IMG/VR virus record: IMGVR_UViG_3300033153_004637
Span: 1-47,880 of that record
Length of the DNA stretch: 47,880 nucleotides
Direction: 5' to 3' (one strand)
DNA from: a virus
This document shows positions 31,510 through 45,460 of the stretch, piece after piece. The position numbers were made by a program, and so were the translations under genes. Position 1 is the first letter of the stretch; every line of letters starts with the position of its first letter. A model generated the notes under the pieces. It saw nothing but the letters and a program-made list of their open reading frames with translations. It made no database searches and was not told where the DNA came from.

Positions 31510-32253
31510 TTATTTTGAGATTGTTTTTACCTTCAACGCCGTGGGGCTAAGACTGACTACCTCGGTGCCACGTGCCGCCAGCCATTGGCACAAGCCATTA
31601 GCCATCCTCAAGTGCTTCGATGTGCCATCGGGCAATAATCTTGGGTTAATATTCTCAGTGCCATCAAAGTAAGTGCTGCCTGTCATATCAAAGCCAACAA
31701 GTATAATACGCTTCGCGCCCTTCCAATAGGCAAGCTGCACCGCCTGCATACCTATATTGCCGCCTGCACGAAGCATACCTTCCAACGGGGCGAACTTAGG
31801 GTCTGCACGTAACGTATAGCCATGATGGAAAAAGTAAGGGACGTTGGGATATAGCTGCGTTAATGCGACATCTCTGCTTGGCGAAGTAGAAAAAACAGGT
31901 GTCGGGTTCAGGTTATTATCCAAGGGGAACTCACAACCTATAACCGTGTCAACTTCATCTGTGAACCACTTCTGCTTAGGTAACGTGGTATCAGCACATA
32001 ACCATATAGACAGCGGCACACACGGCTTGTCGGGGCTTGCCGCCTTAGCCACGGCCATCCGTTCCCTGATGTCAGACGAGTGCGCCACGGCATCATTGCT
32101 CTGTAGCTGTATAGCCTTGTTGACACCTATCGTCCACGCGTCAAAGGGGATACGGCCATAATGCTCTTTACCATTAGGCCCCGTACCGATAACGTAAACA
32201 GTTTCACTTGGGAACTTCCAGTTGTGTTTCAGGATATTTATCAAGCCATTCAT
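31510..32253 (-). CDS. GT42/DUF115-like glycosyltransferase paralog C
   Basis: 247 residues. A Rossmann-like start (VYVIGTGPNGKEHYGR, then WTIGVNKAIQ) and the C-terminal block GGNIGMQAVQLAYWKGAKRI, ILVGFDMTGSTYFDGTEN and VVSLSPTALKVK resemble sialyltransferase family 42 and MptE/DUF115 proteins. Two further copies lie at 33348 and 35916. Likely transfers or handles an activated sugar; substrate unknown. The start overlaps the GNAT gene by 50 bases and has a poorly spaced ribosome site. Confidence 0.6.
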   Translation of the reverse strand: MNGLINILKHNWKFPSETVYVIGTGPNGKEHYGRIPFDAWTIGVNKAIQLQSNDAVAHSSDIRERMAVAKAASPDKPCVPLSIWLCADTTLPKQKWFTDEVDTVIGCEFPLDNNLNPTPVFSTSPSRDVALTQLYPNVPYFFHHGYTLRADPKFAPLEGMLRAGGNIGMQAVQLAYWKGAKRIILVGFDMTGSTYFDGTENINPRLLPDGTSKHLRMANGLCQWLAARGTEVVSLSPTALKVKTISK

Positions 32254-32785
32254 CCTTTGTTATGTCCATCAGGACGGAATCGTGATACTTGCTATCGTGG
32301 AAGTATGCTTTGCGATATTCGCCAACCTTCTTATAGCCGAACTCCTCATAAAACGCGACAGCAGGGTTAATGGCAAATACCTCAAGGCGCACCGTCAACA
32401 GGTTAAACTCATTAAATGCTATCTTGTGTAATTCGTGCATCGCCTTAAGGCCAACGCCCCTGCCGCGCCACTCGTCATCACCGATGTAGATGCCAAGTTC
32501 AGCGTGGCGACTTACCCAGTCAATACTGCTCCAAGCGCACTGCCCCACAAGCCACCATTTACCATCCCACACATCAATGGCATAGTATATATTACGGCTG
32601 TCGCCCACGGTGCCTTGATACCAGTTCTGCTGGTGTGGCTCATTTATAAAGCGGTGCTCCCTGTAGAAGTGCTTAAATTGGTTGCGCCATTCCTTAAGCA
32701 ACGGCAAGTCTTCAGGTTCAATAGCCCTGAGCCGCACCACACCCATCTTGTGTGTTTCGTGTTTAGGATCATCGGTGGTGTGCAT
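32204..32785 (-). CDS. GNAT N-acetyltransferase, PseH/RimL-like (copy 2)
   Basis: 193 residues. Core RLRAIEPEDLPLLKEWRN, acetyl-CoA loop RGRGVGLKAM (about 107-116) and C-terminal FYEEFGYKKVGEYRKA are the GNAT signature, closest in layout to PseH-type amino-sugar acetyltransferases. It is a tandem duplicate of 32788-33348 (shared CxWSxIDWVSRHAE and AIDVWDG). It may acetylate an amino sugar in the surrounding cassette; a protein substrate is possible. Confidence 0.85.
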   Translation of the reverse strand: MHTTDDPKHETHKMGVVRLRAIEPEDLPLLKEWRNQFKHFYREHRFINEPHQQNWYQGTVGDSRNIYYAIDVWDGKWWLVGQCAWSSIDWVSRHAELGIYIGDDEWRGRGVGLKAMHELHKIAFNEFNLLTVRLEVFAINPAVAFYEEFGYKKVGEYRKAYFHDSKYHDSVLMDITKDEWLDKYPETQLEVPK

Positions 32786-32787
32786 TT

Positions 32788-33348
32788 CTATCCAGACCCT
32801 CCTAACTCAGAATATCTGTCATCCCACAGTTTTCCCCATTCCCCACGGGTCATATCGAATAGTATCGAGTCGTGGTATTTGTCCTTGTAAAACTTGGCGT
32901 TTCTATACCGCCCTACTTCCTTATAGCCAAACTTGCGGAGAAAGTTAATGTTATAGGTATTGTATGCCCATACTTCACCGCGCACAGTATTCATATCGAG
33001 GTCTTGAAAAGCGATGCGATGTAATTCAATCGTCATCTTCAAACCATAACCCTTGCCACGGTACTCTGGATCGCCTATGTACCGCCCTACCTCTGCGTGC
33101 CTGCTAACCCAGTCTATATTGCTCCAATTACAAGAACCTATCAAACGCCAATCTTCACCATCCCATACATCTATGGCATAGTGGATAAACCGCTTGTCAT
33201 CCTGTATGGAGTTGTACCACTCCAGTTGGTGTGCATCAGTGATAAGGCGGTATTCCCTGAAGAAGTGCCGTAGTTCGTTGCGCCACTTCTTGAGCAGTGG
33301 CAAGTCTTCCAACTCTATAGCCCTGAGTCGTACCGCGCCTGATGGCAT
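32788..33348 (-). CDS. GNAT N-acetyltransferase, PseH/RimL-like (copy 1)
   Basis: 186 residues. RLRAIELEDLPLLKKWRN, acetyl-CoA loop RGKGYGLKM (about 97-105) and FLRKFGYKEVGRYRNA match the GNAT fold. It shares long identical blocks with the next gene, so the pair arose by tandem duplication; divergence suggests distinct substrates. GTG/ATG region overlaps the upstream gene end by one base. Confidence 0.85.
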   Translation of the reverse strand: MPSGAVRLRAIELEDLPLLKKWRNELRHFFREYRLITDAHQLEWYNSIQDDKRFIHYAIDVWDGEDWRLIGSCNWSNIDWVSRHAEVGRYIGDPEYRGKGYGLKMTIELHRIAFQDLDMNTVRGEVWAYNTYNINFLRKFGYKEVGRYRNAKFYKDKYHDSILFDMTRGEWGKLWDDRYSELGGSG

Positions 33349-33962
33349 CAGCGCACCTCCACATCCAACGCTGTTGGTGATATACTGTAAATATCAATCC
33401 CTTGTTCCTCGACCCACTCAATAAGGCTGTTGAGGTACGGCACATAAGCCCACACGCCCTTGTGTTCACACGTCACCGACGTTGACTCGGTGCCGTCGAA
33501 GTAGCGGTCGCCGAACATGTCAACTCCGCACAAGGCTATCTCCCGGCTCCCGAACCGAGCGCATAGCTCAATAGCCGACCCAACCACGGTGCCATCGGGT
33601 CTGAACTTGCCTGCCACCGGCTCGTAGCTGCCACTCCCCAAGGGCTGTTGGCACTCGCGCCCGTCAACAATGCCAAAGGAGTTTTCTACTTCCCCTACTT
33701 TGGATACAAGCCCATCACTGAAATAGCGAATTATGCCTCTGTTCGGGGCGGTGACATTGCACTGGTTAAACCACTCTACCTTGATAGCCCACCAATCGCT
33801 AACCATCCACGAGTCAGGTGCGACAGGAGCTTCAATAGCCTTGTTGACAACGAGAACATGTCCATCCATCATAGCCCAATATGGCTTGCCACTTGGCCCT
33901 GGTGCTAAGATAGTAACAAGGTGCGGCATCTTAGGTTTAGTTTCGAATACGTCTTTAGCCAT
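33348..33962 (-). CDS. GT42/DUF115-like glycosyltransferase paralog B
   Basis: 204 residues from ATG 33960-33962 behind AAGGAG (spacing 7). TILAPGPSGKPYW, LVVNKAIEAP, SAIELCARFGSREIALCGVD, YFDGTEST and IYSISPTALDVEV align with paralogs A and C. It sits between the methyltransferase and the GNAT pair, overlapping the methyltransferase end. Confidence 0.6.
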   Translation of the reverse strand: MAKDVFETKPKMPHLVTILAPGPSGKPYWAMMDGHVLVVNKAIEAPVAPDSWMVSDWWAIKVEWFNQCNVTAPNRGIIRYFSDGLVSKVGEVENSFGIVDGRECQQPLGSGSYEPVAGKFRPDGTVVGSAIELCARFGSREIALCGVDMFGDRYFDGTESTSVTCEHKGVWAYVPYLNSLIEWVEEQGIDIYSISPTALDVEVR

Positions 33963-34587
33963 TATATATCTCCTTGAACTCATCCACTGTTATAAGGTTT
34001 AATAGTTGTTCTCTGTCCTGCTCAAACGCCCTGAACGTGAGATGCTGTTCAACGGCATCCTCGCTATACATCTGCCCTTCATACGGAACCCAGGAGCCAC
34101 GCTGTATGATGCCACATCCCCAATCTGCATCAACGCAACGGCAAACAAGGTCTTTGCGGAACAAGCGTGTTTTAACCCACGCCTTCCACGTACTGCCGCA
34201 CCACGCATAATGCCCTGCCGGTCGTAACACGCCCGGTTCAACCGTGTGCGCCTGCGTTGGCGGGTTACAGTCGTGAACAACAATGGTGCCGCCATCAGCA
34301 AGGTGCTTAAGGGAGTTGTTGATGTCGCGTTCAACTTGTTCGTGGTGGTGGTCGCCGTCGATGAAGATGATGTCGAATGGTAGTCTTTTAGGGAAATCAA
34401 AAAACTCATCAGATGTACATGCACAACAATCGGCAGACACTAATTTTATATCAAAATTCGGGTCAACCCCCATCTTCAACTTTAGCTTAATTTTGTCATA
34501 ACACTCTCTGTCTGCCACCCCTATTTCGAGGTATGTCTCATACCCATACTTCTCTATCAACCAGTTAATAATATCATACCTGAGCAT
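33955..34587 (-). CDS. Class I SAM-dependent methyltransferase
   Basis: 210 residues from ATG 34585-34587 behind AAAGGAG. Motif I YLEIGVADRE (about 18-27), FDIIFIDGDHHHEQVERD (71-88) and GGTIVVHDCNPP (99-110) match the methyltransferase-24/FkbM-like families found in glycan and cell-surface clusters. It probably methylates a sugar or small molecule in the cassette, rather than DNA, as no NPPY motif is present. Confidence 0.78.
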   Translation of the reverse strand: MLRYDIINWLIEKYGYETYLEIGVADRECYDKIKLKLKMGVDPNFDIKLVSADCCACTSDEFFDFPKRLPFDIIFIDGDHHHEQVERDINNSLKHLADGGTIVVHDCNPPTQAHTVEPGVLRPAGHYAWCGSTWKAWVKTRLFRKDLVCRCVDADWGCGIIQRGSWVPYEGQMYSEDAVEQHLTFRAFEQDREQLLNLITVDEFKEIYNG

Positions 34588-35272
34588 AGTCCACGTTCTC
34601 CTTTGGGTCACGGCCACCCCTCGTATTAGTCTTACTATGGAACGTCATAAAGCGCACACCCTCGTGTTCCACTACCTTGTACCTTTCCTTCAGGATGCGC
34701 TTCATATATGCGTCAATAGCACCACCGGCATATGTCCACTTGCCCTTATAATGTCTATCAACCTGCTTTCTGTTCTCGTCAATGCGCAACCGGCCATCGG
34801 GCCAACGGTCAAGCAACTTATCGGTGGGCTGTTGCAACGCATCAACCCTTGCTACTATTGACCCCATCCCTGAGCCGTATTGCCTGCGGAACACAGAACC
34901 ACGCTTCACCTCATAGTTCCACAGGTTCCACGCAACTGCGCTGCGGGCTGTCAGCACACTCAACCCCTTGGCCGTGTAATCGTGAAGGCGGTAATCGTCC
35001 TCATCCCACCATACAACGTGTGGCTCGGTGCATACGTCAAGGAACGCCTTCAGCTTCATCAGCCACCACCCGCCACCCACTATGCCTGTGACGTTATATT
35101 CCTTTATCTCTATGGGCAAGTCGTGGTTGTTGCCGATGTGCGGGGGAAAGGGTTCCTGGTACATTATGTAGAGAACCTTATCGTAGTTGCCCGATTGGTC
35201 AACGCAGTTAGGGATAGCCATCTGCATTGTCTTGGCGATGTCGTAGGCCATTGTGAGATAGGCTACTTTCAT
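34574..35272 (-). CDS. Glycosyltransferase-like protein (GT-A type)
   Basis: 232 residues. N-terminal KVAYLTMAYD, the metal-binding-like WWDEDDYR (about 94-101) and a C-terminal GGAIDAYMKRILKERYKVVE fit a GT-A fold enzyme using a nucleotide sugar. ATGA coupling to the upstream glycosyltransferase gene. Exact family not identified. Confidence 0.55.
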   Translation of the reverse strand: MKVAYLTMAYDIAKTMQMAIPNCVDQSGNYDKVLYIMYQEPFPPHIGNNHDLPIEIKEYNVTGIVGGGWWLMKLKAFLDVCTEPHVVWWDEDDYRLHDYTAKGLSVLTARSAVAWNLWNYEVKRGSVFRRQYGSGMGSIVARVDALQQPTDKLLDRWPDGRLRIDENRKQVDRHYKGKWTYAGGAIDAYMKRILKERYKVVEHEGVRFMTFHSKTNTRGGRDPKENVDYAQV

Positions 35273-35916
35273 ACTTTGTCCTTCAACCTCCTGCTTGCTT
35301 GGTTATGCCTAATAACCACCTTGCGCTTATATTTAAGTTCTTCGGGCTGCTTGGTGTTCGCTATGTAACTATACGTGACGGGAAGTTGCCCTACACGTAT
35401 GCCCGTTGGCGAGTTGCCACCATCACGCACTATACAATTTACGTAATGGTTGAAGCCTGTCATCGTCCAATCAAACCCCGCCTCAACAAGTCCCACTGTT
35501 TGAGCCACAGAGAAAAAACTTTGCTGTATAGCAACCAACTTGTGGACGTTCGAGTTGTTCTTTAAAAACATCGTGCCTGTGTCCCAATGCCACAATGTAC
35601 CAAGTTCACCCTGTTGTTTGAATGTGTGCCAACGCCTGTAAAGCCCGATGTCATATTTATACATGTCAAATAACTCAGGGTATTTAAGTACCTCGGCATC
35701 GGCATCAAGCCACACGAGATTACACTTTAACTCGTTGAACGCCTTGAGAATGATGCGCCCTTTTTGCAAGCAGTTTGTTTCCCAATCACCTTGCGATTCG
35801 TAAGGGTATAGCTTATACGGCACATTATGCTCAAGCAGCGTTGCCTCAAGGCGCTTAACCTCGTCCTCGTAGGGCGTGCCGATGGTGTATGCGCTTATGG
35901 CTATCCAGCGGGCCAT
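35269..35916 (-). CDS. Nucleotide-diphospho-sugar glycosyltransferase
   Basis: 215 residues. ISAYTIGTPYEDEVKRLEAT, then the acceptor/donor block NLVWLDADAEVLKYPELFD (about 68-86) with the DxD metal motif, matches nucleotide-diphospho-sugar transferases of the PF03407/GT34-like type. It would add a sugar from a nucleotide donor. Overlaps neighbours on both sides, showing co-translation with the cassette. Confidence 0.7.
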   Translation of the reverse strand: MARWIAISAYTIGTPYEDEVKRLEATLLEHNVPYKLYPYESQGDWETNCLQKGRIILKAFNELKCNLVWLDADAEVLKYPELFDMYKYDIGLYRRWHTFKQQGELGTLWHWDTGTMFLKNNSNVHKLVAIQQSFFSVAQTVGLVEAGFDWTMTGFNHYVNCIVRDGGNSPTGIRVGQLPVTYSYIANTKQPEELKYKRKVVIRHNQASRRLKDKV

Positions 35917-36524
35917 TAAATCATCTCCACTTCTAACTTCGTAGGTGACAAACTAACCACATCCATCCCGTCCCCCTTGCACCAATCCACCACCTTCTGA
36001 AGTGCGGGTATCTGCGTCCACCGCCCGTCAGGATGTATGCTTCGCTTATCCATATTCTCCGTGTCGTCGAAGTAACCCTTGCCGCACATATCAACACCGA
36101 CAAGTATGCACCGTTTCGCCTGCTTCTGTTGCGCCAAGTGCAATGCCGCTCCCACTGTCCCCGCACCTTGACGCACTGCACCGGGGATGATGCCGTAATC
36201 ATCGTGGCCTATGGGGCGGGCAAGCTCAACGTGGTATGGTGTCTCAGGGTATGCCTGCGTAAGACGACCTTTGGCAAGAATAGGATAGTGCATCTGGTCG
36301 CTGATGTGATCGTGCATCATATGGTGGAAATACTGCTCGTGGATAATAGCGGTCGCTATGCACAGCCAATACGCCTCACATTGCACCGCCTCAATAGCCC
36401 TGTTGATAGCTATCACTGTGCCTTTGGCGGCGCTGTGATGCGGGAGACCATTAGGCCCCGCACCAAGGATATAGACATCCTTGCCCTTGAAAGATACGGG
36501 GGACTTAAGGAAGTCCTCACTCAT
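35916..36524 (-). CDS. GT42/DUF115-like glycosyltransferase paralog A
   Basis: 202 residues. VYILGAGPNGLPHHSAAKG, VIAINRAIEAVQCEAYWLC, LAQQKQAKRCILVGVDM, GYFDDTENMD and VVSLSPTKLEVEM align with the two paralogs downstream. First enzyme of the sugar cassette. Overlaps the upstream gene. Confidence 0.6.
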   Translation of the reverse strand: MSEDFLKSPVSFKGKDVYILGAGPNGLPHHSAAKGTVIAINRAIEAVQCEAYWLCIATAIIHEQYFHHMMHDHISDQMHYPILAKGRLTQAYPETPYHVELARPIGHDDYGIIPGAVRQGAGTVGAALHLAQQKQAKRCILVGVDMCGKGYFDDTENMDKRSIHPDGRWTQIPALQKVVDWCKGDGMDVVSLSPTKLEVEMI

Positions 36525-38598: not shown

Positions 38599-38995
38599 GC
38601 AAGAAGAAGTTATGGCAAGATGGTTTACGGGCATATGGACGGGTAAATACAACCCGACAACCGATGCCTTGGCCTGTTGTGGCAGGCATTGGCGCTACTG
38701 GATACAGGTGGAAGGCGTCGGTGATTGCCCTGATTGTCAGGCGGGATTACCTGACGCGCCCAATGCCATACCAGAGAAATATCGAGGGTCAGTTTTGCCA
38801 GAAGACAATTCTGAAATAGACTGGGATGCCCATTACGAGAACATTAAGCCACCCGGCTGGGTTCCAATCGAAGTATATCATGAGGCCATTGTCAAAGGTA
38901 TGGTGCGTCAGTGCATACGCCGCAACAAGTGGCACCGCCGCCTGTGGCGGTGGGTGACGGGGCTATTTAGGAGGAACAGCGATGGGACTGGATGA
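38591..38995 (+). CDS. Zinc-binding protein with a Trp/Arg-rich C-terminal tail
   Basis: 134 residues from ATG 38591 behind GAGGATGG. Cys pair ACCGRH then DCPDC (near residues 28-48) suggests a zinc site. The protein ends RNKWHRRLWRWVTGLFRRNS, an amphipathic Trp/Arg tail shared almost exactly with the next gene. The tail could bind membrane, nucleic acid or a common partner. Confidence 0.7.
   Translation: MTEQEEVMARWFTGIWTGKYNPTTDALACCGRHWRYWIQVEGVGDCPDCQAGLPDAPNAIPEKYRGSVLPEDNSEIDWDAHYENIKPPGWVPIEVYHEAIVKGMVRQCIRRNKWHRRLWRWVTGLFRRNSDGTG
38930..38985 (+). repeat. 56-bp direct repeat, copy 1 (tail codons, ribosome site and next start)
   Basis: 35 identical bases encoding WHRRLWRWVTGL, three mismatches, then identical AGGAGGAACAGCGATGG containing the next ribosome site and ATG. 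Second copy at 39108-39163, 53 of 56 positions identical, same register. Confidence 0.92.
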
Positions 38996-39170
38996 TTATA
39001 TCAACAATGACAAAGGCAACTGTTACAGCGGCATTGACCGTGTCATATATGGCTATATCAGCGATGAGCAATTTGCCATATGGCGCAAGGAACGGTTAGC
39101 CCGTGCTTGGCACCGCCGCCTGTGGCGGTGGGTGACGGGGCTGTGGAGGAGGAACAGCGATGGAGATTAA
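38982..39170 (+). CDS. Small protein with the shared Trp/Arg-rich tail
   Basis: 62 residues. N-terminal 40 residues are unrelated to the upstream protein, but the C-terminus ARAWHRRLWRWVTGLWRRNS is nearly identical. The ATG and ribosome site lie in repeat copy 1 and the stop just after copy 2. Probably formed by duplication of the tail-plus-start module. Confidence 0.65.
   Translation: MGLDDYINNDKGNCYSGIDRVIYGYISDEQFAIWRKERLARAWHRRLWRWVTGLWRRNSDGD
39108..39163 (+). repeat. 56-bp direct repeat, copy 2
   Basis: Matches 38930-38985 with three mismatches. It again ends with AGGAGGAACAGCGATGG, serving the gene at 39160. Confidence 0.92.
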
Positions 39171-39348
39171 ATATGAAGATGATTGGCATACTGAGTCTGG
39201 CGACCTTACGCCAGAACAACTAAAGGCTATTATGAATTTTAACACTATCATGCCTGATGGTAGTTCCATCTTCAGAGCAAGCTATACGCCCCCTTGGTGG
39301 CGCAGGCTCCTGTGGCGTGTGCGCAACTGGTGGGGCAACAGGGACTAA
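39160..39348 (+). CDS. Small protein with a related Trp/Arg-rich tail
   Basis: 62 residues. Acidic N-terminus (MEIKYEDDWHTESGDLTPEQ) and C-terminal PPWWRRLLWRVRNWWGN, a diverged third version of the Trp/Arg tail. The three consecutive genes thus keep a similar cationic aromatic end on different bodies. Function unknown. Confidence 0.65.
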   Translation: MEIKYEDDWHTESGDLTPEQLKAIMNFNTIMPDGSSIFRASYTPPWWRRLLWRVRNWWGNRD

Positions 39349-40422: not shown

Positions 40423-40853
40423 CCCACCGATAACATATACCACCACCACCAGGGTCTGCCGCCACCCGCGGCATTGTTCACTGGTCTCAGGAGCCCCCCG
40501 CCCCTGTACGGAGAATAGAGTGGCGAGGAAATTGTAACTATTGCTCGGTGCGGACATCCGTAGCAATGCTTCACGGTTTTGCTAAAATGGTTCGGTGGGG
40601 GGGCCTCAACTCATGTCACCATGTCACCTGAACCTATAACCCCGGCCACTGTCCCCTCAACACTGGGTCAAAATGTCCCACTCACCACAACAACATTACA
40701 ACAAAATAATATGGCTCAGGCAGCGGGGGGCGTAGTACACATATAATAGTCCCCCCCCCGCTAACCCCAAAGCCCCTATGCCCCGATGCCCATGCCCATG
40801 TATCAATATCGCGCACCATCTATCAACCAATGGCAGTGTTACCAAGGGCTACG

Positions 40854-40911
40854 GGGTGGGGGGGTCAGGGTGCAGGGTGCCAGGGTGCCAGGGTGCAGGG
40901 GGGTGGGTGGT
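40854..40911 (+). repeat. G-tract iterons with G-quadruplex potential
   Basis: Four CAGGGTG units at 40866, 40873, 40881 and 40889 (spacing 7, 8, 8) lie between GGGGTGGGGGGG and GGGGGGTGGGTGG. More than four runs of three or more G with short loops lie on the plus strand, the formal requirement for a G-quadruplex. Confidence 0.75.
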
Positions 40912-40978
40912 AGTACCCCTATGCCTATATACTTGACAACACTTGACACCGTCCCCATGCCATATGTTGCCATTACCT

Positions 40979-41023
40979 TGTTACCCCATGACCCTCGATC
41001 GTATGTCCTGTTACCCCATGACC
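40979..41023 (+). repeat. 15-bp direct repeat TGTTACCCCATGACC, period 30
   Basis: Exact copies at 40979-40993 and 41009-41023. A reversed 10-bp part (AGGGTCATGG) occurs at 41072-41081. Possible protein-binding iterons. Confidence 0.85.
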
Positions 41024-41203
41024 TTGTTCCCTAGTTGCTACCCCCCATGCCCATGTATCCATAGGCTGGTAGGGTCATGGTGCATCGGGCAAGGGTTACT
41101 GTTCTCGGTATGCCCTTGGATATTTCTTTATGCTTGTGTCCCGTGCTATGACTGTGATGCAAGGGATTAGGGCAAGTATTATGGGAATAAGTAGGAATAT
41201 CCC

Positions 41204-41232
41204 TTGACATAGTGTCGATAGTAGTGTATGAT
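41204..41232 (+). promoter_or_regulatory. Near-consensus sigma70 promoter for the 41-45 kb block
   Basis: TTGACA (41204-41209), 17 bases, TATGAT (41227-41232): eleven of twelve consensus bases. Start near 41239, giving a leader of about 150 bases before the first ATG at 41388. The leader contains a direct repeat ACACGGTTACT. Confidence 0.85.
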
Positions 41233-41387
41233 AGTATTGAAGCGAGGGACATTGACAAATTACCCGGCGATACTCGAAGACACACGGTTACTACCTTAAT
41301 GGGAACACCACGAGAAGCCCTCAACATAGATGCCTTTGAAGGGCGGTAACACGGTTACTGTACTACTGATAAGGTGAAGGTGCTATA

Positions 41388-41519
41388 ATGATGTTCCGAG
41401 GGTTCACTTACACAATTGATGATATCCCTAACATTATCCAATGCTGGCTTAATGGATGGGTAAGTAAGCATGATATGTTGCAACTGATTGAGAACACCAT
41501 CCAGTCACGCTATGACTAA
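41388..41519 (+). CDS. 43-residue protein, first gene of the spaced small-gene block
   Basis: ATG 41388 (or the next codon, 41391) behind GAAGGTGCTATA, a start context shared by several genes downstream. Reads MMFRGFTYTIDDIPNIIQCW and ends NTIQSRYD. Followed 8 bases later by a GC hairpin (GCGCG/CGCGC). Function unknown. Confidence 0.6.
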   Translation: MMFRGFTYTIDDIPNIIQCWLNGWVSKHDMLQLIENTIQSRYD

Positions 41520-41527
41520 GGCACACG

Positions 41528-41616
41528 GCGCGCTTGCCGCGCTTCAAGGGCATCTATTGAATGTTACTGTGTTCCACAAGGGGCGTATGATATACGCTTA
41601 CTACTTGTGGAAGGTG
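41528..41616 (+). promoter_or_regulatory. Structured spacer: post-stop hairpin and a hairpin capturing the next ribosome site
   Basis: Hairpin 41528-41542 (GCGCG/CGCGC). Then TTCCACAAG (41572-41580) pairs with CTTGTGGAA (41604-41612), enclosing GCGTAT/ATACGC (41583-41597). The 3' arm includes the GGAA of the GGAAGGTG ribosome site for the 41622 gene, so translation may be controlled by unfolding. Confidence 0.65.
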
Positions 41617-41621
41617 CAATA

Positions 41622-41828
41622 ATGGCAAGAACATTTAAGGCTATTTTCGGCCCTGAAGCTGATAACTTCGAGTATCTGAAAACCCGTGGTTGGACTTTTG
41701 AAACGGTTATAGGTTCAAAGGTTCGCTATAACGCTTACCATAATGGGGAATTGGTATACGGGCGGTTTGAGGACTTAGGACACGTTATCAGAATGGCAAC
41801 TGATCGGGAATTACAATCCCAAACATAG
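41622..41828 (+). CDS. Small hypothetical protein
   Basis: 68 residues from ATG 41622 behind GGAAGGTG. Reads MARTFKAIFGPEADNFEYLK with a mixed alpha/beta pattern and RFEDLGHVIRMATDREL end. Flanked by structured spacers. Function unknown. Confidence 0.65.
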   Translation: MARTFKAIFGPEADNFEYLKTRGWTFETVIGSKVRYNAYHNGELVYGRFEDLGHVIRMATDRELQSQT

Positions 41829-41833
41829 CACCC

Positions 41834-41919
41834 CGGCGGCTATACGCCGCTTGTGGGACACGGTGACAAACGCACAACGGGCCTTGATAGCAAGCTGTAA
41901 CAGGCTTGACTACTCAAGG
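41834..41919 (+). promoter_or_regulatory. Structured spacer between small genes
   Basis: Hairpin CGGCG/CGCCG (41834-41849) is followed directly by CTTG. Then nested arms CCTTGA (41882-41887)/TCAAGG (41914-41919) enclose CAAGC/GCTTG (41891-41908). The next ribosome site follows within 5 bases. Confidence 0.6.
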
Positions 41920-41936
41920 GAACAGGTGCTAAGACA

Positions 41937-42323
41937 ATGAAAAAAGCTGAGATGCTTACAAGGTGGCAAGGGATTGAACCCAATCAGGCTCTAAGGCCGG
42001 GCGTGATACCCTACAAACATGAGGGTAGCACGTTTGACCGGGACGGTATCAGGGTAACAGGCTCTATGGAATGGATAGATGCTGTATTGTCAAGGTTGAC
42101 CGATCTGTTAGCTTATGAGGGCGTTGATACACGCTTACAGGTTAGCTATCGCCAATCGAATGATAAGGACGGCAACCCTATTGATGGGTATAACTGTTAC
42201 ATTCAGGTGCATCAACGTGGTAGTGAAGGGGCAATATTGCAAGCGTATATGGCCGGTGATACCCGCAAGGCAAGGGAATTGCATGAGCATAACCTTGAGC
42301 TTGCTTATCAGGGGGTAGAATGA
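41937..42323 (+). CDS. Hypothetical protein
   Basis: 128 residues behind CAGGTGCTAAGACA. Contains GSMEWIDAVLSRLTDLLAYE and an RLQVSYRQSNDKDGNPIDGY beta segment, so a compact alpha/beta fold is plausible. Coupled to the next gene (TGATG). Function unknown; small early proteins of this kind include anti-defence factors. Confidence 0.7.
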   Translation: MKKAEMLTRWQGIEPNQALRPGVIPYKHEGSTFDRDGIRVTGSMEWIDAVLSRLTDLLAYEGVDTRLQVSYRQSNDKDGNPIDGYNCYIQVHQRGSEGAILQAYMAGDTRKARELHEHNLELAYQGVE

Positions 42324-42733
42324 TGGACTATACCACTATTCTAAACGCCCTCAAGTCAAAGGCAATGGATGATATAGCCCGATGGACGGCCTATTGCATC
42401 AAACATCCCCGTAAGTCAAAGGACAAGACAAAACCCACGTTCTACCAATCGTTAGCCAACCAGCTCGAAACGTGGATAGATACAAGCGACAAATCACACC
42501 CCGTCCCCTTTAGCGAAAAGCAAGCGTACTATGTCAACAAAGCATGTCCGGGGGCTTATGAGTTCATCCGGGAACAACAAGTTAAAACAGGGCAATATCA
42601 AAACCACGCGACAAAATGCCCGGTTCGGTACAACCTCAACGGGGACGGCTTAGAGATCGGCAATAATGGGCTGGTTACTTGTCAGGGATGCGGGGCTGTT
42701 TTGGGGAAGGTGGTAGAACTACAGATAGTATAA
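42323..42733 (+). CDS. Hypothetical protein with C-terminal zinc-ribbon-like motif
   Basis: 136 residues from ATG 42323. N-terminal helices (LNALKSKAMDDIARWTAYCI), C-terminal CPVRYNLNG...TCQGCGAVLG with three to four Cys that could hold zinc. Translated with the preceding gene. Function unknown. Confidence 0.7.
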   Translation: MDYTTILNALKSKAMDDIARWTAYCIKHPRKSKDKTKPTFYQSLANQLETWIDTSDKSHPVPFSEKQAYYVNKACPGAYEFIREQQVKTGQYQNHATKCPVRYNLNGDGLEIGNNGLVTCQGCGAVLGKVVELQIV

Positions 42734-42741
42734 GCAACAAT

Positions 42742-42761
42742 GCCGGGGCACACGTCCCGGC
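42742..42761 (+). promoter_or_regulatory. Post-stop GC hairpin
   Basis: GCCGGG/CCCGGC arms with an 8-base loop, 9 bases after the stop, then GCTTGC. Member of the repeated hairpin-GCTTG series; no T-run. Confidence 0.6.
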
Positions 42762-42831
42762 GCTTGCTACCAAGGCCCGTTAGTGCAACGTCAACCCGCC
42801 CGGTAAACCACTATATTGGGAGATGATAACA

Positions 42832-43056
42832 ATGGATAAGATGTGTGTTACATGCCATTTCGGAGAGGTATTACCACAAGGCAAGGGGCCAACGATATTT
42901 TGCCATTGCCATGATAAGTTCAAGGGCAAGTATGAAACGTGTAGCGAGTGGGAACATGAATCGCTCGGTATGGACTTAGTGCCATGTCCCGGATGCACCA
43001 AAGGTGCTGCCAAACCAGAGCAACCATGCCCAGTATGCGGGACACCTTGCTGCTAA
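42832..43056 (+). CDS. Small multi-Cys zinc protein
   Basis: 74 residues from ATG 42832 (GGGAG 10 bases before; ATG 42823 is too close to it). Cys pairs CVTC, FCHCH, CPGC and CPVCGTPCC indicate two or more zinc sites, like a double zinc ribbon. Function unknown. Confidence 0.65.
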   Translation: MDKMCVTCHFGEVLPQGKGPTIFCHCHDKFKGKYETCSEWEHESLGMDLVPCPGCTKGAAKPEQPCPVCGTPCC

Positions 43057-43071
43057 TTAGCCCGATATGCT

Positions 43072-43167
43072 CCCGGCCCTTGTGCCGGGGGTTTATCAGG
43101 CGGGTTGACACCTTGGCGCATTTTGGCAAGCTCGATAGCCCCACGGGGGCTAAATACAGGGGCTTGC
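43072..43167 (+). promoter_or_regulatory. Structured spacer with nested hairpins before a ribosome site
   Basis: CCCGGC/GCCGGG (43072-43089) follows the stop by 15 bases. Further on, outer arms GCAAGC (43126-43131)/GCTTGC (43162-43167) enclose a perfect TAGCCCC/GGGGCTA hairpin (43136-43152), and AAAGGTG follows immediately. Confidence 0.62.
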
Positions 43168-43179
43168 AAAGGTGCTATT

Positions 43180-43788
43180 ATGATTACAGACAACATGCAG
43201 GAAACACACAAGTTAGCCGCAAAGGTGGCCGAACACATGGAAGGTTGGCATTATGACCCGACAAGTGACCCGGCTATGAACTGGCCGCATATCAAAGACA
43301 GTAACGGCGGGATGATACGCATCCACGGCACGGAATGGATGTCAGGTAACAAACTTCACATTGTCGGCATCTATCCCACGGATGACGGGCGATTGACAGG
43401 CCCCCGTGATGCTATGGTTGATACAAGCCATATCAAGGATATGATTAACGTATCATCGACCAAAACCCCCGATACTATCGCCCATGACATTACCCGGCGA
43501 TTATTGCCCGGTTACTTAGAAGGGCTTGAGATTGTCAAAACCCTTATCAACGACTGGCAAACACGCCGGAACCACGCTGCTACCAGAATGTCAGAAGTCG
43601 CAAGCTACGGCGGCGGCGAAGTACGCAAAAGCGGCATGACTGACAAAAACAGACCACGGGCTGATTTTAGCTTGTCTGGTGGTTGGGCAAATGCGGAAAC
43701 TTCCGACGGTGAATCATACTGTTTTGATATCAAGTACGTTTCCCACGCCGTAGCCGTGAAGATAGCGGCAGTCCTGCACGAAGCCTAA
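43180..43788 (+). CDS. Hypothetical protein, largest of the block
   Basis: 202 residues from ATG 43180 behind AAAGGTGCTATT. N-terminal THKLAAKVAEHMEGWHYDPT, middle PDTIAHDITRRLLPGYLEGL helical, end SYCFDIKYVSHAVAVKIAAV. No family recognised. It is followed by the candidate structured RNA. Confidence 0.7.
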   Translation: MITDNMQETHKLAAKVAEHMEGWHYDPTSDPAMNWPHIKDSNGGMIRIHGTEWMSGNKLHIVGIYPTDDGRLTGPRDAMVDTSHIKDMINVSSTKTPDTIAHDITRRLLPGYLEGLEIVKTLINDWQTRRNHAATRMSEVASYGGGEVRKSGMTDKNRPRADFSLSGGWANAETSDGESYCFDIKYVSHAVAVKIAAVLHEA

Positions 43789-43791
43789 CAC

Positions 43792-43821
43792 CCCCGGCAA
43801 CCCGGCTCCCTTATGCCGGGG
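43792..43821 (+). promoter_or_regulatory. Post-stop GC hairpin
   Basis: CCCCGGC/GCCGGGG arms around 16 bases, three bases after the gene stop, then CTTGCC. Alternative inner pairing CCGGC/GCCGG is possible. Member of the hairpin-GCTTG series. Confidence 0.6.
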
Positions 43822-43844
43822 CTTGCCACAATGTGCCGAGACTT

Positions 43845-43979
43845 CATAAGCCCTTATTCATAGGGGTGTGACCCACAGCATACAAAATACCCCTTTGTAG
43901 CTAATCGGGACAGGGTATTGTTGCCGACTAAGTGGCCGGGGCGGGTGAACCCCGCTACCCCTATGAATTAGGGCTTGTG
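43845..43979 (+). ncRNA. Candidate structured RNA closed by a 23-bp helix
   Basis: Arms 43845-43867 and 43957-43979 pair over 23 positions with one G-U and one U-U, enclosing 89 bases. Inside, 43883-43892 pairs with 43913-43923 (CAA-AATACCC with GGGTATT-G-TTG, one bulge) with a 20-base loop, and 43941-43955 forms GCGGG/CCCGC. A competing hairpin GGGT/ACCC (43864-43874) could open the closing helix. It matches no RNA class I recognise. The next ribosome site lies about 45 bases downstream. Confidence 0.55.
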
Positions 43980-44037
43980 ATCGACAATGGACACACTAAG
44001 CCCTTCAGGGAAGTAAAATAACCTTGGAGGTGCTAAG

Positions 44038-44220
44038 ATGGAAACAGAAACAAGGGTAGATTTGAATGATGGTCATCAGTCAGTCACGCTATGGTTCGGA
44101 AATGACCGTGTGGAAATGGAAGTGTGGACTGGCAAAGATGAAAGCGGCATGGGCAAACGCTTCAGCGAACACTTCGATTTAGAAGAGTCCCTCGAACAGC
44201 TCATGTTACCCAAACCCTAA
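44038..44220 (+). CDS. Small acidic protein
   Basis: 60 residues behind GGAGGTGCTAAG. Beta-like start (METETRVDLNDGHQSVTLWF) and helical acidic end (FDLEESLEQLMLPKP). Preceded by the candidate RNA. Function unknown. Confidence 0.65.
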   Translation: METETRVDLNDGHQSVTLWFGNDRVEMEVWTGKDESGMGKRFSEHFDLEESLEQLMLPKP

Positions 44221-44229
44221 CCGCCCTGT

Positions 44230-44360
44230 ACCGGGGCCACGCGCCCCGGTGCTTGTCCCGCTTTCCAACCCTATTGGAAGCGGGGCTTCCCTCAAGGGCT
44301 TGTGTGTCCCACAATAACAATATTAGCACCTTTCCGCCCTGGCCCCCGATAGCGCGGGGG
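44230..44360 (+). promoter_or_regulatory. Three successive GC hairpins in one spacer
   Basis: ACCGGGG/CCCCGGT (44230-44250) then GCTTG. CCCGCTTTCCAA/TTGGAAGCGGG (44257-44284, one bulge) then GCTTCC. CCCCCG/CGGGGG (44343-44360). The next start is at 44390. No T-runs follow the stems. Confidence 0.62.
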
Positions 44361-44389
44361 TCACGGGCCAAGGGTGCAAAGGAGACATG

Positions 44390-44686
44390 ATGCATTACAT
44401 TGAAAAGGACGGCAAGCCCGTCGAGGTTGAGGATGTATTGGAATGGGCAAAATGGTTTGAGACAGCCGACAGGCACGTGGCCATCACAGAGTTGGATAAC
44501 TGCAAGGTGTCTACCGTTTTCCTCGGTACTGATTACAACTTTAGTGGTAGCGGGCCTCCGGTAATCTATGAGACCCTTGTATTTGGTGGGCCACTTGACA
44601 ATGCGATGGACAGGTACTGTACCCGTGAAGAGGCTCTCAAAGGCCATGAGGCGATGGTATCCAAGGTAAAGGAGGCCACCGAATGA
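44390..44686 (+). CDS. Conserved small phage protein of unknown function
   Basis: 98 residues from the second of two ATG codons behind AAAGGAG. The pattern VSTVFLGTDYNFSGSGPPVI, YETLVFGGPLDNAMDRYCTR, EEALKGHEAMV is one I associate with a widespread small phage/plasmid protein of unknown role (FGGPL..E..RY.T..EA..GH). Coupled to the next gene. Confidence 0.72.
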   Translation: MHYIEKDGKPVEVEDVLEWAKWFETADRHVAITELDNCKVSTVFLGTDYNFSGSGPPVIYETLVFGGPLDNAMDRYCTREEALKGHEAMVSKVKEATE

Positions 44687-44823
44687 GCATATCAGTATCA
44701 TCTACGCCCCGCTGCCGCGTGTGCCGATCAGTCGCCGTGCCTTATGGCCGGTGGCAGGTGTGCATAAGATGTGGGCATACGGGGCCATTGACAACAGACA
44801 AAGGAGGACGACATGCCAAATGA
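44683..44823 (+). CDS. 46-residue zinc-ribbon microprotein
   Basis: ATG 44683 overlaps the upstream TGA; GGAGG lies just before. Reads MSISVSSTPRCRVCRSVAVP, with CRVC and CIRC pairs 14 bases apart in residues, a minimal zinc ribbon. Overlaps the next gene by 11 bases. Confidence 0.62.
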   Translation: MSISVSSTPRCRVCRSVAVPYGRWQVCIRCGHTGPLTTDKGGRHAK

Positions 44824-45142
44824 CAATGACAACTGGGCAAAACGGATACATGAACTCACCGCCACGAACAACAGCCTCGTGGACACGGTGCGGGGGCTGA
44901 GGGACGAGGTTGGACGGTTGCGGGCGTTACACAATGCCGATAAGCAACATTACATGGGCATAGCGCAAGCGACACAGGCCACCAACGCCGAGCTGGTGGG
45001 GGCGTTATCCTGTTGCCTTGCTGACCTTGAGGGCATCATGCCGCAATATGCACCAGACTGGGAAGCGTGCCCTGGTTGGCAAAGTATCAAAGATGCCCGT
45101 GCCGCCCTCGCCAAGGCCAAGGGAACGGGGGGTGATGGATAA
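44813..45142 (+). CDS. Coiled-coil protein
   Basis: 109 residues behind AAGGAGG. Residues 8-42 (WAKRIHELTATNNSLVDTVR, GLRDEVGRLRALH) have Leu/Val heptads. Ala-rich C-terminus. Function unknown. Confidence 0.7.
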   Translation: MPNDNDNWAKRIHELTATNNSLVDTVRGLRDEVGRLRALHNADKQHYMGIAQATQATNAELVGALSCCLADLEGIMPQYAPDWEACPGWQSIKDARAALAKAKGTGGDG

Positions 45143-45246
45143 TGGAATATGGAACCATTTTCATTTGCTTCGTAGTCGGCCTTATGGCCGGTTACGCCAT
45201 TGTAACATTAGCCGCGATGGTCGCACGGGGAGGTGATAACAATTGA
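45142..45246 (+). CDS. 34-residue membrane microprotein
   Basis: ATG 45142 behind GGGGGGTGATGG. Single membrane helix (TIFICFVVGLMAGYAIVTLA) and an Arg-containing tail. Overlaps both neighbours. Function unknown. Confidence 0.58.
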   Translation: MEYGTIFICFVVGLMAGYAIVTLAAMVARGGDNN

Positions 45247-45412
45247 TAACACCACCAAAACCCCGGCCCGCGTTAACATCGTGGTGCAAAAGGACACCCG
45301 CGAAGCCGTGGCCGCTGTCAGGGATGACATGCGTAAGGTCGTAGGCAACCGCGTCACCTTTGACGAGTGCCTGTTAGCACTGGTACAACAGTATGAGGAC
45401 AGGGTTAAGTAA
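45242..45412 (+). CDS. Small protein with a probable ATT start codon
   Basis: The frame after 45242 is clearly protein-like (DNTTKTPARVNIVVQKDTRE, then FDECLLALVQQYEDRVK; 56 residues) and ribbon-helix-helix-like in size and spacing. A perfect GGAGGTGAT ribosome site precedes ATT 45242-45244 at normal spacing. The only ordinary start, GTG 45233, lies inside that ribosome site. At 42832 almost the same context carries ATG. TTG 45243 is out of frame. Last gene before the terminator. Confidence 0.6.
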   Translation: MDNTTKTPARVNIVVQKDTREAVAAVRDDMRKVVGNRVTFDECLLALVQQYEDRVK

Positions 45413-45433: not shown

Positions 45434-45460
45434 AAGCCCCCTGTGATTGGGGGCTTTTTT
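45434..45460 (+). terminator. Rho-independent terminator at the convergence of the two blocks
   Basis: AAGCCCCC/GGGGGCTT 8-bp stem, 7-base loop, then TTTT on the plus strand. It lies between the last rightward gene and the last leftward gene and may also stop leftward transcripts, though the T-run there is weak. Confidence 0.9.

Follow-up and report, generated by a model that had tools for sequence, protein, structure and literature searches.

The window analysed here is the whole 47,880-nt stretch of the IMG/VR record IMGVR_UViG_3300033153_004637, from a divergent, uncultivated tailed phage. Its plus strand carries a block of small genes (g1 to g7) in which seven long-range inverted repeats of 19-28 bp follow one another head to tail, enclosing in turn g1, g2, g3 together with g4, g5, g6, a geneless unit and g7. 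In all six gene units, an arm located ahead of the ribosome site was complementary to an arm located beyond the stop codon of the same gene, the two arms lying 190-870 nt apart. This array sits inside one apparent transcription unit, from a promoter-like site to an intrinsic terminator. The genes (open reading frames, ORFs), arms (with Watson-Crick pairs, WC) and hairpins of the block were as follows.

41204-41232, plus strand: promoter-like site TTGACA-17-TATGAT, putative start of the operon (11/12 consensus positions; a consensus match only)
41326-41349, plus strand: g1 upstream arm a1, pairing with 41534-41557 (21 WC, 2 GU, 1 mismatch)
41388-41519, plus strand: g1, ORF of 43 aa, ribosome site AAGGTGCTATAATG
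41527-41542, plus strand: GC hairpin after g1
41534-41557, plus strand: g1 downstream arm a1', core 41542-41557 directly after the hairpin
41562-41589, plus strand: g2 upstream arm a2, pairing with 41841-41868 (23 WC, 4 GU, 1 mismatch)
41622-41828, plus strand: g2, ORF of 68 aa
41834-41849, plus strand: GC hairpin after g2
41841-41868, plus strand: g2 downstream arm a2', core 41850-41868
41872-41895, plus strand: g3-g4 upstream arm a3, pairing with 42762-42786 (23 WC, 1 mismatch, 1 bulge)
41937-42733, plus strand: g3 (128 aa) and overlapping g4 (137 aa), ORFs forming a single translation unit
42742-42761, plus strand: GC hairpin after g4
42762-42786, plus strand: g3-g4 downstream arm a3'
42790-42809, plus strand: g5 upstream arm a5, pairing with 43090-43109 (18 WC, 1 GU, 1 mismatch)
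42823-43056, plus strand: g5, ORF of 77 aa, cysteine-rich
43072-43089, plus strand: GC hairpin after g5
43090-43109, plus strand: g5 downstream arm a5'
43112-43133, plus strand: g6 upstream arm a6, pairing with 43819-43840 (18 WC, 3 GU, 1 mismatch)
43180-43788, plus strand: g6, ORF of 202 aa
43792-43821, plus strand: GC hairpin after g6
43819-43840, plus strand: g6 downstream arm a6'
43844-43980, plus strand: geneless unit inside spacer S5 (arms 43844-43868 and 43956-43980; about 87 nt without evident gene; GC hairpin just before the second arm)
43989-44014, plus strand: g7 upstream arm a7, pairing with 44285-44309 (23 WC, 1 GU, 1 mismatch, 1 bulge)
44038-44220, plus strand: g7, ORF of 60 aa
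44230-44284, plus strand: two GC hairpins after g7, the first at 44230, the second (44258-44284) abutting the arm
44285-44309, plus strand: g7 downstream arm a7'
45434-45456, plus strand: intrinsic terminator of the operon, a stem followed by a T run

The organization emerged from a search for long inverted repeats, many of the longest of which joined the 3' end of a spacer to the 5' end of the following one and spanned the gene in between. Consecutive units were separated by linkers of only 2-4 nt (TGAA, AAC, AAC, AC, ACT), reaching 8 nt before g7 (TCGACAAT). The 3' foot of the GC hairpin touched the inner end of the downstream arm in 6/6 gene units (0 or -1 nt), a position taken in g7 by the second hairpin and not by the first, and the hairpin could therefore stack on the long stem. 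Stems spanned about two helical turns and frequently held one internal mismatch. Arm sequences were unique to their unit, the best identity between units being 35-56%. A mismatch that seemed to recur about 8 bp into the stem, counted from its inner end (7, 8, 8, 8, 10 and 8 bp), was considered as a further regularity but not relied on, this stretch overlapping the GC hairpin in g1 and g2.

An initial annotation of the block, made from the sequence alone, had described structured spacers of 100-250 bases, each with a GC hairpin and then usually GCTTG, CTTG or GCTTC after a small gene. All six hairpins (41528, 41834, 42742, 43072, 43792 and 44230) were present as placed, and five were followed by one of these motifs, the exception at 43072 being followed by GGTTT. 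Spacer lengths mostly agreed (89-249 nt measured, one spacer falling short at 89), and a hairpin followed g1, g2, g4, g5, g6 and g7 but not g3, which overlaps g4. Most spacers were also more structured than dinucleotide shuffles, with z values of -2.1, -3.5, -1.5, -4.6, -5.2 and -6.0 for S1 to S6 and 0.0 for the leader. The annotation had not noticed that, starting with the first base 3' of each hairpin, there is an arm complementary, over the length of the gene, to that gene's own leader. Because the hairpin abuts the closing stem without a gap, the reported succession of hairpin and GCTTG corresponds to the junction of the two.

In an all-against-all alignment of spacers S0 to S6, the six adjacent pairs scored 50, 58, 51, 44, 46 and 51, while all 15 non-adjacent pairs scored 38 or less. 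Five of the six adjacent pairs stood out from dinucleotide shuffles with p values of 1e-7 to 5e-4; the g7 pair needs one bulge, and its ungapped p value was 0.026. Over 300 shuffles of the block, repeats scoring at least 44 occurred at a mean of 0.01 per shuffle against 6 observed, and the longest chain was 2 against 6 observed without gaps. GC-rich phages do yield many random inverted repeats when the threshold is relaxed, phage TM4 giving chains of up to 11, but at the strict threshold chains did not exceed 2 in TM4, in T7 or in the remainder of the window. Among 295 records scanned (the window and 294 other loci, 3.1 Mb), with at most one mismatch allowed per stem, the window gave a chain of 7 and the others chains of 3 or less; this sample covers little of known viral diversity, and the array is therefore unique only within the sequence searched. 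The lax-threshold chains of GC-rich phages were rejected as compositional, none exceeding 3 at one mismatch or less per stem, and the sole apparent chain with a ribosome-site motif from the DNA scan (locus L096) was discarded as a collagen-like Gly-X-Y coding repeat. As a source of this anatomy, chance complementarity between GC-rich spacers is statistically refuted, its probability being negligible.

Predicted duplex energies of the paired upstream (a) and downstream (a') arms ranged from -32 to -46 kcal/mol. Every unit folded alone was predicted to form its stem, with a mean pair probability of 0.86-0.94 in the gene units. Departures from Watson-Crick pairing comprised 10 G-U against 3 A-C under strand-symmetric scoring (p 0.046), and this excess favors pairing in the sense RNA.

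The upstream arms also showed complementarity closer to home. As the initial annotation had noted, a nested structure lies beside the ribosome site, and it was found in 6/6 leaders: the sequence with which the upstream arm paired best locally included the Shine-Dalgarno (SD) region, sometimes together with the start codon. These local arm:leader duplexes had predicted energies of -10.6 to -23.5 kcal/mol and were collectively stronger than those formed with shuffled arms (Fisher p 3.7e-5). Since each upstream arm can pair with a' or with its own leader, it has two mutually exclusive partners. When the arm was treated as occupied, the predicted cost of opening the SD fell from 9.9 to 4.2 kcal/mol in g2, 5.6 to 1.7 in g3, 6.2 to 0.8 in g5, 6.6 to 3.6 in g6 and 11.2 to 3.6 in g7.

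Our tentatively preferred reading, to which we give somewhat less than even chances, is that each cistron forms a closed RNA domain, off while nascent and licensed once the transcript has passed the end of the gene. The first part of the operon would then consist of successive mRNA domains, each autonomous and holding a single translation unit. During transcription of a gene, arm a would pair locally and make it harder for ribosomes to enter. After RNA polymerase has moved beyond a', formation of the a:a' stem (-32 to -46 kcal/mol) would displace the local hairpin (about -11 to -24 kcal/mol), enclose the gene in a loop with the GC hairpin as its cap and release the ribosome site. The gene would thus be licensed only on a transcript reaching past its end; loss of the 3' side would switch it off, and each unit would be insulated from the folding of its neighbors. 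Host RNase III may additionally cut the stems into single-gene mRNAs, a step that this model leaves open. The sequence shows the arrangement of arms, hairpins and chain, whereas the folding order, the effect on translation and any cleavage are inferred. The initial annotation had suggested an RNA processing, stability or translation-control system acting on every gene; a translation or processing device at the RNA level is indeed the best reading, but its elements are halves of gene-enclosing stems and not independent spacer structures. With similar caution, the block may represent an undescribed operon architecture, in which the polycistronic mRNA of a DNA phage strings together cistrons that are closed one by one, each having its own two-turn stem, hairpin cap and ribosome-site switch, and in which translation proceeds only from a transcript complete past the gene end. 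No similar array was found in open-access PubMed Central text.

Several observations weigh against licensing. The prediction for g1 was opposite to that of the other units, its SD opening cost rising from 3.7 to 5.2 kcal/mol with the arm occupied; direct SD sequestration compared with shuffled arms was only moderate (dinucleotide Fisher p 0.016); whole-unit folds showed a clear SD gain for g6 and g7 only; and masking any upstream segment tends to reduce structure. The size of the ribosome-site switch is uncertain. A fold of the full 4.2-kb RNA formed 5/7 stems, two being absent, and delayed translation would leave nascent RNA exposed to Rho. No relative carrying the array was found in which covariation of the arms could be followed: searches by DNA, by single proteins in viral contigs and by terminase motif returned no close kin, and neither did the terminase alignment, with about 25% identity among the matches listed.

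Helices of about two turns are substrates of RNase III, phage T7 uses this enzyme between its early genes, and in 16S and 23S rRNA long stems enclosing the gene are processed by it, the enclosed RNA being non-coding. By analogy, the stems could be processing stalks releasing single-gene mRNAs with protected ends. We consider RNase III cutting, somewhat unlikely on its own, to be the possible main alternative to closed, licensed cistrons or an addition compatible with them. A long helix of about two turns stands at each gene boundary (19-28 bp), often with the single internal mismatch that suits such substrates, and there is one stem per translation unit, abutting the next with short linkers. 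The likeness is to rRNA in the long gene-enclosing stems and to T7 in having one processing element per gene boundary; however, T7 sites are local hairpins, the T7 genome gave no chain under the same scan, and rRNA stems enclose non-coding RNA, cleavage at the present stems being putative. A phage RNase III was not found in the record, so that processing would depend on the host enzyme, and cutting alone does not explain why the arms are complementary to their own ribosome sites. Pairing of the 3' untranslated region (UTR) with the 5'-UTR across the gene does create a substrate cut by RNase III in icaR of Staphylococcus aureus (PMC3868564), but there a 7-nt UCCCCUG pairs with the SD itself and represses, whereas here stems of 19-28 bp bind the anti-SD strand, one per unit. 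The same complementarity of arm and ribosome site in 6/6 leaders is left unexplained if the stems only separate the folding of genes and shield ends from nucleases, with neither switch nor cutting. We regard this explanation as unlikely, even though every stem encloses exactly one translation unit and SD effects were modest in whole-unit folds. It finds a parallel in Escherichia coli, where each ORF of an operon mRNA is its own folding unit and a gene is translated less when the boundary structure before it is lost (PMC5318159); that pattern is a diffuse statistical tendency along the sequence, in contrast to the explicit private closing stems of the phage.

In hok/Sok and aapA/IsoA, 5'-3' pairing silences a single toxin mRNA and 3' trimming activates it (PMC6733600). 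The block shares with this class, and with icaR, a leader complementary to a region beyond its own coding sequence (6/6 gene units). It also shares a metastable local hairpin over the SD, present in all six leaders with moderate sequestration, and a co-transcriptional refolding logic: one segment of the leader can pair either nearby, close to the SD, or with a site past the coding sequence, but not with both at once. On this two-state layout (PMC6733600), and because g1 is predicted to be less open when closed, the stems could be imagined as the silent state, each gene being activated by 3' trimming. Such an off-switch is very unlikely: the long-range pairing holds the anti-SD strand and not the SD in 5/6 units, where the SD opening cost falls in silico instead of the SD being occluded, and the products are, by their sequences, unlike small hydrophobic toxins. 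The array thus differs from hok and aapA in having many genes per operon, ordinary-looking proteins and the opposite predicted polarity. The modular units, the geneless unit and the abutting boundaries with A/C-rich linkers also recall mobile or invertible DNA cassettes that recombine at their end repeats, on the model of integron arrays or invertons. This is highly improbable, given that the RYYYAAC and GTTRRRY attC cores were absent from every spacer and that arm sequence is not shared between units. The G-U excess lies on the sense strand, and neither a tyrosine recombinase (no PF00589 match), a serine recombinase nor a Y1 transposase was found in the record, which is possibly a fragment.

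The initial annotation had also likened the spacers to the start-associated sequences (SAS) of mycobacteriophages, a resemblance that did not hold beyond the fact that in both cases inverted repeats lie close to where many small phage genes start. The 13-bp SAS GGGATAGGAGCCC, located at the start site, had no match in any spacer at up to 3 mismatches. The extended start-associated sequences (ESAS) of Cluster K mycobacteriophages are local, imperfect 17-bp repeats that follow a shared consensus, have arms mostly separated by 4-13 bp and occur upstream only (PMC3203893), whereas the arms described here flank the gene, differ from unit to unit and share no sequence. None of the six hairpins was reported on the plus strand as an intrinsic terminator (GC hairpin followed by a T run). 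No Rfam 15 covariance model matched the window at its gathering score, two sub-threshold matches in the block both falling inside coding sequence. Identification of these elements as intrinsic terminators, SAS/ESAS, integron cassettes or members of an Rfam family was thus rejected.

No significant family match was obtained for the gene products of the block. Relatives of g3 (41937-42323) were found in one 595-kb uncultured phage record and six viral contigs at up to 53% identity (L205, L209-L214), without the array in the stretches read, and a search of bacterial genomes with g3 found none. Five of the enclosed units have in common an unusual ribosome-site motif, AGGTGC(T/A)A (41378, 41612, 41924, 43170 and 44028), which is rare elsewhere in the window. 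In the last spacer, TAACAATATTAGCACCTTT (44315-44333) is complementary to this motif, reaching 84% across 19 nt with the g6 copy, and may pair back onto the leader of g8. Downstream of the array, the operon continues with a conventional part.

44325-44378, plus strand: local hairpin ahead of g8, long-range partner not found
44387-45412, plus strand: g8 onward, conventional genes (ORFs), tightly packed or overlapping, without enclosing stems

The g8 product (44387-44686) belongs to an uncharacterized but widespread family of phage proteins that carries the motif VSTVFLGxDxN and was matched in at least 173 viral contigs; those read (L217-L296) were without the array in the stretches covered. Elsewhere in the record, the terminase was about 25% identical to those of Zobellviridae and the major head protein matched PHROG 9953, while the portal had zero tblastn matches among 50,697 phage records. 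A C-rich stretch of about 770 bp (40430-41200) lies just before the operon promoter; it has no convincing genes, contains repeats such as CCCATGCCCATGTATC and GTGCCAGGGTGC, and is a possible origin or control region. Adjacent small plus-strand genes (38929-38965, 39108-39144 and 39290-39348) have near-identical or similar Trp/Arg-rich tails (AWHRRLWRWVTGLWRRN; WWRRLLWRVRNWW) that look like duplicated C-termini. A minus-strand cluster (31510-36524) with a GNAT acetyltransferase, a methyltransferase (PF13578) and MptE-like proteins is perhaps devoted to surface or glycan modification.

In bacterial operons, ribosome sites and weak preferences in folding are thought to be the main means by which genes are kept apart. 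This phage devotes a large part of a 3-kb stretch to explicit stems closing each translation unit. If the array works as proposed, it would be a bacterial counterpart of the closed-loop mRNA, would suggest a portable means of insulating genes in synthetic operons and would provide a built-in check restricting translation to complete messages.

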